Source: Eggerthella lenta DSM 2243 (GTDB lineage Bacteria > Actinomycetota > Coriobacteriia > Coriobacteriales > Eggerthellaceae). From it: a DNA stretch of 64,000 nucleotides. The stretch spans positions 1,352,180 to 1,416,179 of the forward strand of contig NC_013204.1 of NCBI RefSeq assembly GCF_000024265.1, in the 5' to 3' direction. A program made the position numbers and the translations under genes. The notes beneath the pieces are model-generated. The model did not search any database. It was not told the origin of the DNA and saw only the letters and a program-made list of their open reading frames with translations. The stretch's first letter is position 1, and every line of letters starts with the position of its first letter. This document shows, piece by piece, positions 22,390-45,922 of this stretch.

Positions 22390-23454
22390 ATGGAAACCAT
22401 CATCACGAAATCACAGGTCGCGGACGCAGTCTACGCGGCCATCCCGAAGCTGGCCTGCGTGCTGCCGGCCGATATCGAAGCGGGGCTCGCCGTGGCGCGG
22501 GAGCTCGAGGGCAATCCGCGCGGGCGCGCGGTTCTCGACCAGCTAATTGAGAACGCGGCGATCGCCGCCGAGGATCGCGTGCCTATCTGCCAGGACACCG
22601 GCACCGTGTGGGTCAGCCTCGAGATCGGGCCTGACGTAGCTGTACGCGGCGACGTGTTCGCCGACGTGGACGACGCCGTCGCCCGCGCCTACGACGAGGC
22701 GCGCCTGCGCAAGTCGGTGGTGCGCGATGCCGTCCTCGACCGCGCGAACACGGGCGACAACACGCCTGCGTTCTGCGACGTCCATCCCGTGGACGAGCCG
22801 GGCGCGGCGCGGCTGCACGTTATGCTGAAGGGCGGCGGCTCGGACAACGCGAGCCGCGTGGTCATGCTGGTTCCGGGTGCCGGCAAGCAGGGCATCGTCG
22901 ACGAGCTCGTACGCTGCGTGCGCGAGAAGGGCGCCAACGCCTGCCCGCCGCTCGTGGTGGGCGTCGGCATCGGCTCCACGTTCGACAAGGTGGCCGGCTT
23001 GGCGAAGCGGGCGCTCATGCGGCCTGTGGACGAGCCCGCGGCCGACGACCGCCTGCGCGCGCTCGAAGAGGAGCTGCTCGCGGCCGTGAACGCCACGGGC
23101 ATCGGACCCGGCGGCCTGGGCGGCCGCACGACGGCGCTGGCCGTGCGCGTGGCCACGGCGCCGTGCCACATCGCGGCGCTGCCCCTGGCCATCAACATGG
23201 GCTGCTCGGCCATGCGCAGGATCACGGTTCCGCTGGCTTGCCAGCCAGCGGAACGGCTCGACGCTGCGGCTTCCCGCCGTACCCGATCTTCGCGCGATGC
23301 CGCAGGCTTGCGTACCGAAGTACGCGGCGCCTGCGCCATCCCCCGAATCTCAGGCACTGCGGAAACCCTCGCTGACTTCGCTGAACCTGCGTCTGATCGT
23401 TCGCGCTGTGCGCGAAGCGCCGCGGATGCGGGCGAGGAGGTGCGCCATGGCTAG
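22390..23454 (+). CDS. fumarate hydratase alpha subunit (class I, TtdA/FumA N-terminal type) with aberrant C-terminal extension
   Basis: 354 aa; typical alpha subunits are about 280 aa. Conserved parts are VPICQDTGTVWVSLEIG, DRANTGDNTPAFCDVHPV, the LKGGGSDNASRV loop, IGPGGLGGRTTALAVRVATAPCHIAALPLAINMGCSA (cited in pieces; iron-sulfur Cys residues are in ICQDTG, PCHIA and GCSA). It dehydrates malate/hydrates fumarate with the beta subunit. The family normally ends just after this point (here near residue 280, MRRITVPL). The last ~75 residues are encoded by a structured repeat related to 31949-32120 and look like non-native protein. The stop overlaps the beta-subunit start by 8 bp. Confidence 0.85.
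   Translation: METIITKSQVADAVYAAIPKLACVLPADIEAGLAVARELEGNPRGRAVLDQLIENAAIAAEDRVPICQDTGTVWVSLEIGPDVAVRGDVFADVDDAVARAYDEARLRKSVVRDAVLDRANTGDNTPAFCDVHPVDEPGAARLHVMLKGGGSDNASRVVMLVPGAGKQGIVDELVRCVREKGANACPPLVVGVGIGSTFDKVAGLAKRALMRPVDEPAADDRLRALEEELLAAVNATGIGPGGLGGRTTALAVRVATAPCHIAALPLAINMGCSAMRRITVPLACQPAERLDAAASRRTRSSRDAAGLRTEVRGACAIPRISGTAETLADFAEPASDRSRCARSAADAGEEVRHG
23226..23372. repeat. structured repeat, family G copy 1, inside the fumarase alpha frame
   Basis: It begins with a 12-bp hairpin (23227-23254, arm TTCCGCTGGCT). Then come three blocks, GACGCTGCGG (23260), ACCCGATCT (23281) and GCGTACCGAAGTA (23310). The same blocks occur with exactly the same spacing (21 and 29 nt) at 31982, 32003 and 32032. 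The end boundary is approximate. Confidence 0.75.
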
Positions 23455-23992
23455 CGCTGATCGCATCCGCCTCGCGTTGCCGTTCGACCGCGCCGCGCTG
23501 GCCCGGTTGGAGGCGGGCGACTCCTGTCTGCTCACCGGCCCTTTGTACACGCTGCGCGACGCGGGACACGTGCGCCTCTTGGCCGAGCTGGAAGCCGCCG
23601 GCGGCGCGCTGCCCTACGGTCTGGACGGTCAGGCCATCTTCTATGCGGGTCCCACGCCCGAAGCGGCCGGGCGCCCCTTCGGCGCGGTCGGGCCCACCAC
23701 GGCCAGCCGCATGGATTTCGCCGCCCCCGCGCTGCACCGCGCAGGCGTCGCGGCGACGGTGGGCAAGGGCCGCCGCTCGTCCGAGGTGCGCGATGCCTGC
23801 CGCGCGACGGGTTCCGTTTATTTCGTGGCATGCGGCGGGGCCGCGGCCTATCTGGCGAAGTGCGTGGCATCATCGGAGACGGTGGCGTACGACGATCTGG
23901 GAACCGAGGCCCTGCGCCGCATCGACGTGGTCGATTTCCCCGTCTTCGTCGGCGTCGACGTACGGGGCCGCGACGTGTACGACCTCGTCTAG
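23447..23992 (+). CDS. fumarate hydratase beta subunit (class I, TtdB-type)
   Basis: 181 aa, normal length for the beta chain. Motifs: LTGPLYTLRDAGHVRL, AIFYAGPTP, GPTTASRMDFAAPAL, GKGRRSSEVRDACRATGSVYFVACGGAAAYLAKCV, and the terminal DFPVFVGVDVRGRDVYD. It partners with the alpha subunit to form the [4Fe-4S] hydratase. The start at 23447 follows GAGGAG, which itself lies in the abnormal 3' extension of the alpha gene, so coupling is retained. Confidence 0.9.
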   Translation: MASADRIRLALPFDRAALARLEAGDSCLLTGPLYTLRDAGHVRLLAELEAAGGALPYGLDGQAIFYAGPTPEAAGRPFGAVGPTTASRMDFAAPALHRAGVAATVGKGRRSSEVRDACRATGSVYFVACGGAAAYLAKCVASSETVAYDDLGTEALRRIDVVDFPVFVGVDVRGRDVYDLV

Positions 23993-30976: not shown

Positions 30977-31948
30977 ATGGAACTTTCGTTCGTATACTCC
31001 GGCAACGAGACGGTGGGCGCTATGGTGGTGTCCCGCCTGGAGGCGGCCGGCTGCACGCGCACCGACGACGTCGCGCATGCCGAGGCCATCATCACGTACT
31101 GCACGTCGCAGACGGCGCTGGAAGACGCGTACTTCGACGAGCAGGGGCTCGTGCAGGCGGCGGGGAAGGGCGCGCTGCTCATCGACCTGTCGGCGTCGAC
31201 TCCCAGCTTCGCGCGCGAGCTGAACGCCGTGGCCGTGGTGAGCGACCTCATGTCGGTGGAGGCGCCGCTCGTGGTGGTGGACGTGGCCCGCGCCGACGCG
31301 TTCGGCGACCGCGACAACCTGGTGTGCTTCGTCGGGGGCGACGAGGAGGCCGTGGCGGAGGCGCGTCCCGTGCTGGAAGCGATCGCCGGCACGGTGCAGG
31401 AAACGGGCGGGGCGGGCTCTGCGCAGCTCGCGCGCGCCGCGTACACGCTGCAGACGACGGCGCAGGTGATCTCGGCCGTGGAGGCCGACGCGCTGTACCG
31501 CGCCGTGCGTCGCTCGTCGGCCTCGCTCGACCAGGCGACGGAGCGCGTGGGTGCGGCGACGCCCGTGGCCGAGCAGGTGCTGGCCGCGGTGAACACGGGG
31601 CGTTTCGACGGCATGTACACGGTTGAGATGTTCATGGCCGAGCTGTCCGCCGCGCTGACGGCGGCCGACGACGTGGACCTCATCCTACCGCAGGCCGAGG
31701 CGTGCCTGCACCTGCTGGAGCTGCTCGCCGTCATCGGCGGCTCCGACAAGGCGCCTGCAGCGCTGGCGCTGGTGTACGGCGAGGAGAAGACGTGCGCCGA
31801 GCAGGGCCTCGACTGGACGCGCGCTGAGCAGGCCTACGGCGACGTCGCCGAGGGCTTCGACGATCTGGACGACGACGGCCACGACCACGGGCACGACCAC
31901 GGTTCCTTCGGCGATTATCCCGGCTACGGCGCGTATTCGGCCAATTAG
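30977..31948 (+). CDS. 3-hydroxyisobutyrate dehydrogenase-like protein with degenerate cofactor site and His-rich tail
   Basis: 323 aa. The overall order (N-terminal Rossmann-like domain; LIDLSASTPSFARELNA; VVDVARADAFGDRDNLVCFVGGDEEAVAEARPVLEAI; all-helical C-terminal domain with AAYTLQTTAQVISAVEADALY) matches the beta-hydroxyacid dehydrogenase family. However, the nucleotide motif is SGNETVGAMVVSRL instead of GxGxMGxxMAxxL, and the catalytic Lys region is altered (QLARAAYTL). The protein ends with an acidic/His run (DDDGHDHGHDHGSFGD), suggestive of metal binding. Cofactor and substrate are uncertain. GGGAAAGG precedes the ATG. Confidence 0.72.
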   Translation: MELSFVYSGNETVGAMVVSRLEAAGCTRTDDVAHAEAIITYCTSQTALEDAYFDEQGLVQAAGKGALLIDLSASTPSFARELNAVAVVSDLMSVEAPLVVVDVARADAFGDRDNLVCFVGGDEEAVAEARPVLEAIAGTVQETGGAGSAQLARAAYTLQTTAQVISAVEADALYRAVRRSSASLDQATERVGAATPVAEQVLAAVNTGRFDGMYTVEMFMAELSAALTAADDVDLILPQAEACLHLLELLAVIGGSDKAPAALALVYGEEKTCAEQGLDWTRAEQAYGDVAEGFDDLDDDGHDHGHDHGSFGDYPGYGAYSAN

Positions 31949-32120
31949 GGTTCCGTCGGCCTACGGCCGACGGACCTTGCCGACGCTGCGGGCGGCTGTG
32001 GCACCCGATCTCGCCGCGAAGCCGAGGACTCGCGTACCGAAGTATCCCCTGCGGGGACTTCTTGCAGGATGCGCTTCGTCCTCGCCTTCCTCACGATCTC
32101 GGACACCACAGCCGCCCTCT
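31949..32120. repeat. structured repeat, family G copy 2
   Basis: It starts directly after the stop codon of the dehydrogenase-like gene with hairpin 31952-31974 (arm TCCGTCGGC). The blocks GACGCTGCGG, ACCCGATCT and GCGTACCGAAGTA follow, spaced exactly as at 23260-23322. GGGCGGCTGTGG (31990 region) also pairs with CCACAGCCGCCC near 32105-32116, closing a large outer stem. Confidence 0.75.
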
Positions 32121-32145
32121 CTGACATTATTGGACCGGTGAGTCT

Positions 32146-45736: not shown

Positions 45737-45922
45737 GACAGTCTCCTTTCTCCGGCAGCGCTTCCGGCGCCGCCTTCAAGGTCTTCGGGTGGCGTGTCCA
45801 CCTCTCTGTGAAGATATTGTGATGGGCTGGGAAACGCTATTCAAAGGGCGCAGTCCGTTCGGTGTCGCGGTGCCGTTGCACAAGGTCATCCGTATGTCCG
45901 AGTTGCGGAATTAAAGAATATG

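Follow-up and report, generated by a model that had tools for sequence, protein, structure and literature searches.

The window analysed here is the 64,000-nucleotide (nt) stretch of the Eggerthella lenta DSM 2243 genome at positions 1,352,180 to 1,416,179 of NC_013204.1. It holds a fumarase locus in which the open reading frame (ORF) of the alpha subunit enters a palindromic DNA element near its 3' end and stays open as far as the start of the beta gene. A sequence-only reading had placed a structured repeat at 23210-23454; that interval begins 15 nt before the element as delimited here, and its end is the alpha stop codon. The features of the locus, with a second copy of the element, are as follows.

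22390..23454, +: fumarase alpha ORF (class I, Fe-S type), 354 amino acids, with a predicted repeat-encoded tail
22390..23229, +: conserved alpha core, residues 1-280, from the PF05681 match and the ends of the repeat-free relatives L033 and L034
23225..23395, +: palindromic element copy, read through in the GAC frame (covariance model R1, 171.4 bits, E 2.8e-44)
23227..23254, +: hairpin A, 12-bp perfect arms and 4-nt loop, with the in-frame loop codon TGC here
23268..23368, +: hairpin B, 40-nt arms (23268-23307 / 23329-23368), 75% complementary
23310-23325, +: apical hairpin GCGTAC-CGAA-GTACGC within hairpin B
23409..23425, +: small third palindrome TTCGCGC-TGT-GCGCGAA; BLAST matches extend to query 211-213
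23434..23440, +: GAGGAGG, Shine-Dalgarno sequence of beta, past the end of the repeat
23447..23992, +: fumarase beta, 181 amino acids, its start overlapping the alpha stop (ATGGCTAG)
31948..32144, +: second window copy, untranslated, directly behind the stop of ORF 30977-31948 (155.6 bits, E 4.5e-40)

The Pfam family Fumerase (PF05681) spans alpha residues 12-280, corresponding to profile positions 2-269 of 270 (E 5e-91). The alpha sequence also scores over the cut-off of NF004885, and the Pfam and NCBIfam matches finish at residues 279-281. C67, C185, and C272 are invariant in 24 sequences, and we take them to be the cluster-binding cysteines. The beta ORF matches NF005310 and TIGR00723, below the curated cut-off of both. 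Judged by these matches, the window alpha qualifies as the alpha subunit of a class I (Fe-S) fumarase with the beta gene alongside; the alpha of Eggerthella sinensis is 92% identical to it. The alpha frame continues for 77 codons beyond residue 277 and is closed by TAG at 23452-23454, which agrees with the expectation, drawn from the sequence, that alpha should end near residue 280 and that its frame runs on.

The fumarase copy of the repeat is 171 nt long. It shares with the second window copy the blocks GGTTCCG, GACGCTGCGG, and GCGTACCGAAGTA, which begin at 23226, 23260, and 23310 in the former and at 31949, 31982, and 32032 in the latter (offsets 8723, 8722, and 8722). The three-block match had been recognised earlier; the spacing, then called identical, is equal but for one base, and the second copy had correctly been read as non-coding. 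Both copies fold better than all of their shuffles (200 each; z -4.2 and -7.0). Since neither matches any Rfam family at gathering thresholds, a known structured RNA was rejected. A few bases after hairpin A stands GACG, the complement of CGTC; repetitive extragenic palindromic (REP) sequences have an end tag defined as GTAG or CGTC. Palindromes like TTCGCGC-TGT-GCGCGAA were seen by eye behind two further copies (L009 and L016). On the opposite strand, a weak model match at 23138-23256 (-; 21.9 bits) overlaps hairpin A and is probably a palindromic shadow.

The alpha-beta junction in relatives

Among 86 fumarase loci scanned with the covariance model, the window's own included, the element is present in two, the window and an uncultured metagenome-assembled genome (MAG, L068); four of the 86 hold no beta, and their junction may be incomplete. 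A first comparison of junctions had left 17 of 110 loci without an alpha call because minus-strand genes were missed. The element is absent from alpha in the three congeners searched, and therefore it appears to be an insertion and not native protein. That the tail could be a native part of the family has the open frame in its favour and nothing else, and we give it practically no credence: the element is in 2 of 86 loci, the profile matches end at 279-281, and the alpha ends of relatives, which start from 5 residues past position 277 upward, have other sequence. A native extension was rejected on the number of loci and on these ends, and the idea of an extension conserved in all relatives is refuted.

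Alpha stops 14 residues beyond position 277 in the repeat-free locus L034, from the same genus, and 12 residues beyond it in L033, which belongs to the same family and is also repeat-free. In both, the alpha stop overlaps the beta start, and a G-rich Shine-Dalgarno sequence lies at the window's spacing. The congener L034 ends in ...RRVTVDLRGEAEGGAR*, whereas alpha here reads ...RRITVPLACQPAERLDAAAS... at the entry into the repeat, and the earlier claim that a repeat replaced the end of alpha is upheld by this comparison. The repeat had also been credited with a new stop and with the GAGGAG that serves the beta start. However, both TAG and GAGGAGG lie past the repeat and have counterparts in L034 and L033. 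Therefore, neither was brought in by the repeat, the length of which only decides which stop is in frame.

The window and L068 elements begin at the identical nucleotide, 5 nt after codon 277. In a tree of 21 alpha-beta pairs, for which L039 was reverse-complemented, the two stand apart and the sisters of both are without the element; 10 of the 18 inner branches are weak, including that of the Eggerthella group (support 84/91). The two copies are 85% identical, and other copies reach up to 87%. Vertical inheritance of an insertion shared with L068 is not favoured, since congeners and sister are empty and the copies are no closer to each other than to others.

In the 80 named relatives, alpha and beta form one frame in 16, with 84-252 nt between them; they are separate and adjacent in 49 and more than 1 kb apart in 11, and no beta is in the locus in 4. 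Further inserts, some of them palindromic by eye, occur at the junction of relatives. By these sequences, the fumarase alpha-beta junction is generally a tolerant one.

Other repeats were also noted at this junction. Those of L041, L063, L065, and L130 carry one that is read CHPERxxxxxEGSR in three of these. In a Gordonibacter genome (G065 / Marseille-P2775), yet another type of repeat, GGGGCGGGCTGCTGCCCGCC together with its complement, is found at the fumarase junction (L062) and in the recQ loop (L302).

A covarying repeat family and its placement

The covariance search of the own genome gave 65 rows; 13 of them are shadows on the reverse strand and 4 are weak, and the remaining 48 are clear same-strand copies. 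BLASTN of the stretch against the same genome gave 35 matches, including its own palindrome and split copies. Given these counts and the folding of both window copies, the match between the two is no coincidence. The element is present in 107 of 138 genomes of the family (E 1e-3) and in 110 of 296 genomes of a class-wide draw (E 1e-9), where every listed positive belongs to the window's order, in four families. No paper on such a repeat family in Eggerthella was found by title and abstract start in the open-licence literature.

The element is formed by two hairpins with strong compensatory variation. Across 24 copies of the own genome, both partners vary in 31 of the 43 pairs (184 double-change cells), and the covariation of 0.503, compared with 0.154 in shuffles, is not reached by any of 500 shuffles and lies far above that of slid structures. 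By hand count, G-U accounts for about 18 of 983 standard-pair cells. Since selection at the RNA level should leave more G-U, its rarity points to a DNA palindrome; we infer that correction, or else selection acting on DNA hairpins, keeps the two arms matched.

Orientation follows two chromosome arcs in 46 of 48 own copies, in all 19 copies of genome G052, and in 47 of 51 copies of G065, with arc boundaries set by hand from the copies themselves. As a gene baseline in the own genome, 43 of the 55 ABC genes listed, of 125 matches, do the same (Fisher p 0.01). The copies keep to the arcs more strictly than these ABC transporter genes, and a replication-strand bias of the element is possible.

The gene context was surveyed for 118 copies: the 48 own copies, 19 of G052, and 51 of the 53 of G065 (E 1e-12). 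Upstream of 111 copies is a gene of the same strand; for 5 the gene is on the opposite strand, and 2 copies have no gene. The upstream stop lies between -12 and +2, counted from the start of the element, in 54 copies, at +14, inside the hairpin A loop, in 23, elsewhere inside the element in 4, and more than 12 nt before it in 12; 18 copies are read through. Between species, one site can fall into two classes, with the stop before the element or in the loop (L226 with L201 and L241; L273 with L211). As 25 cross-genome copy pairs have matching flanks, some copies are old.

These placements are also what lends some weight to a functional intercistronic mRNA structure, similar to REPs and bacterial interspersed mosaic elements (BIMEs), that protects or tunes the upstream message and in which coding is a side effect. 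Of the copies surveyed, 111 come after a gene of their own strand, with 54 placed immediately past its stop, and the matching flanks show that some have been kept for long; uni-REPs are also near the 3' end of the upstream ORF in the part of PMC3733652 consulted. However, GT pairing is taken as a sign of RNA function in the same part of that paper, whereas G-U is rare here; a 3.6-Mb genome (3,632,260 bp) has just 48 copies, and some copies lie in coding interiors. On balance, this explanation appears unlikely, although it deserves consideration.

A single reading frame, ...DAAASxxTxSxxDA..SRTEV..AxAxPTISGTxETLAD... (the GAC frame), is entered in 18 of 18 read-through copies; where the gene has stopped earlier, the figure is 17 of 65 (4 copies without an anchor were dropped). 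The 18 copies represent 14 distinct gene sites, four pairs being orthologous. Of the stops inside the element, 17 of 20 in the loop and 2 of 4 elsewhere are in the GAC frame. Openness alone was rejected as the cause of frame use, since among 105 long copies the next frame is open more often than GAC (69 versus 55; 29 for the third). Use of a single frame suggests that the peptide is of consequence, if only by doing no harm, and is no demonstration of a function.

All 13 read-through ORFs examined, fumarase alpha among them, stop -8 to +5 nt from the start of the next gene; the other five read-through copies (L152, L154, L163, L246, and L256) are interior to longer ORFs, L246 and L256 as judged by position only. 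The simplest reading is that these junctions already had an overlapping stop and start, and that an insertion survived only if that stop could still be reached in an open frame. Several stops lie near the beta start, and the insert alters the choice of the one in frame; this would speak for a frameshift or sequencing error, with alpha truly ending earlier. However, errors would not make 13 of 13 ORFs examined in three genomes end at the next start and 18 of 18 copies keep one frame, and this account is hardly credible.

Copies within coding sequence, and the alpha tail

The element also lies in frame inside two other genes of the own genome, ksgA (L152, 3077937-3078106, -) and recQ, in its zinc-binding region (L163, 1289496-1289664, +); both names come from recognition of the protein without a family search. 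Each protein has one match in the own genome (E 1e-40 for ksgA and 1e-60 for recQ), and thus no spare copy by that test. Among nine genomes compared for ksgA, the element is only in the own genome; a long loop, different in sequence, occupies this site in G040. In recQ, again with nine compared, it is at one site in G000, G040, and G062 and absent from the three other genomes of the genus. The own and G040 recQ copies are mutually closest (88%, versus at most 85% to others), and an old descent with losses is possible for this insertion. In relatives, both sites fall in loops that differ in length, and no target duplication was seen by eye at either against this variation in length. The structure prediction of KsgA, with a mean predicted local distance difference test (pLDDT) of 46 from a shallow alignment, was not used.

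Another copy (L154, 535415-535611, +; also L272) is flanked by two 4Fe-4S motifs in a ferredoxin-domain protein, which carries another repeat-like stretch (..PGHPERAQHEDEGSR..). Elsewhere in the window, 45743-45774 (-) matches the L31-Coriobacteria ribosomal protein leader (RF03128), just over the gathering score.

In the AlphaFold2 model, the alpha core is confident and pLDDT is below 50 over residues 307-353; the tail is probably disordered. The ratio of non-synonymous to synonymous change (pN/pS) in the GAC frame is 1.08 in four orthologous translated pairs versus 1.10 in other pairs, and the tail gives, on little data, no sign of protein-level constraint. It had been asked whether the tail is tolerated or put to use. 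From the model and this ratio, a tolerated tail is favoured. A use, e.g. in the assembly of alpha with beta, such as linkers may have in fused proteins of the two subunits, could build on a junction that accepts linkers of 84-252 nt in 16 of 80 named relatives. In such single-chain class I fumarases, a linker joins alpha and beta at this same point, whereas the chains of the window are separate and the tail ends at the beta start. The predicted disorder, the orthologous translated copies without protein-level constraint, and the three congeners that manage without the element make a use of the tail very improbable.

We regard it as probable that an RPE-like coding palindromic mobile element (RPE, Rickettsia palindromic element) was inserted at the end of fumarase alpha and is tolerated there. 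The scheme we favour is as follows. An element of about 170 nt, arriving by insertion as a non-autonomous mobile element, probably entered the last alpha codons, where it now lies upstream of a stop that overlaps the beta start. The alpha ORF runs through the repeat because the in-frame loop codon is TGC, not a stop, and the GAC frame is open; as the ORF stops at the beta start, the stop-start overlap is kept. The 63-65 extra residues would form a disordered, tolerated tail. Selection would keep mainly those insertions that lie behind a stop, that stop translation at once, or that are open in a benign frame.

RPEs are palindromic elements of Rickettsia that are fused in frame to genes and are also found between genes, and miniature inverted-repeat transposable elements (MITEs) are also known fused in frame to genes, as stated in the portions consulted of PMC10969869 (RPEs) and PMC2229807 (both). 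The present element resembles RPEs in being a dispersed palindromic repeat (48 copies, with covariation), in its in-frame insertion in unrelated conserved genes (alpha, ksgA, and recQ) whose orthologues in three congeners are without it, and in one recurrent peptide frame (18 of 18). It differs in phylum, in that most copies lie after the 3' end of a gene, in the loop stop of 23 of 118 copies, and in read-through ORFs that end at the next start; the likeness is one of behaviour, and no homology is claimed. With REPs and BIMEs, in the consulted part of PMC3733652, it shares hairpin DNA repeats shortly past the 3' end of the ORF upstream, a varying distance to the next, and some copies in genes. 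Unlike those with a REP-associated tyrosine transposase (RAYT), it is about 170 nt long and not 20-40, its genome is without Y1_Tnp, it has nearly one orientation, and G-U is rare. ERIC, YPAL/RU-2, and Correia MITEs, as covered in part in PMC2229807, are similar in length (100-200 bp), long hairpins, and ORFs fused in frame to the host, whereas neither terminal TA duplication nor transposon-like ends are shown here and the phylum is another. In behaviour the element is like an RPE, and in placement like a REP.

Several points weigh against an RPE-like mobile element. Y1_Tnp (PF01797), the one transposase family searched for, is absent from the own genome in a search that was positive in 5 of 14 control genomes; a RAYT-driven REP was rejected on this absence. 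No target duplication and no recent filled and empty pair within one species are shown. A distant MAG has the element at the same alpha nucleotide, and three of nine genomes share one recQ site; therefore, free transposition is rivalled by an old insertion followed by losses and by a preferred site. The entry frame is different in 3 of 20 loop-stop copies and in 2 of 4 with another inside stop. In addition, pN/pS rests on four pairs, and substitutions are also limited by the palindrome; translation of the alpha tail is a prediction from an open frame; and gene calls came from a codon-score ORF heuristic trained on 11 window ORFs.

A domesticated 'stop-or-go' module is also conceivable, in which each copy has either a stop (TGA or TAA) in the hairpin A loop or an open GAC frame, and copies would be retained at the ends of genes and where stop and start overlap because their hairpins set termination and re-initiation between neighbouring genes. 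We consider it improbable. If it were true, a single repeat family would reshape protein C-termini and the translational coupling of genes in many operons of these bacteria.

Implications for the Coriobacteriia

The sequence-only reading, confined to the fumarase junction, missed the wider point that a whole repeat family behaves in this way. The best-documented palindromic repeats that code for protein are those of Rickettsia; the family described here covaries and extends through an order of Actinomycetota (Coriobacteriia). In bacteria that can be cultured, it offers many natural sites, both filled and empty, at which to see how proteins and operons absorb mobile DNA, and the element may explain odd C-terminal tails in automatic annotation.
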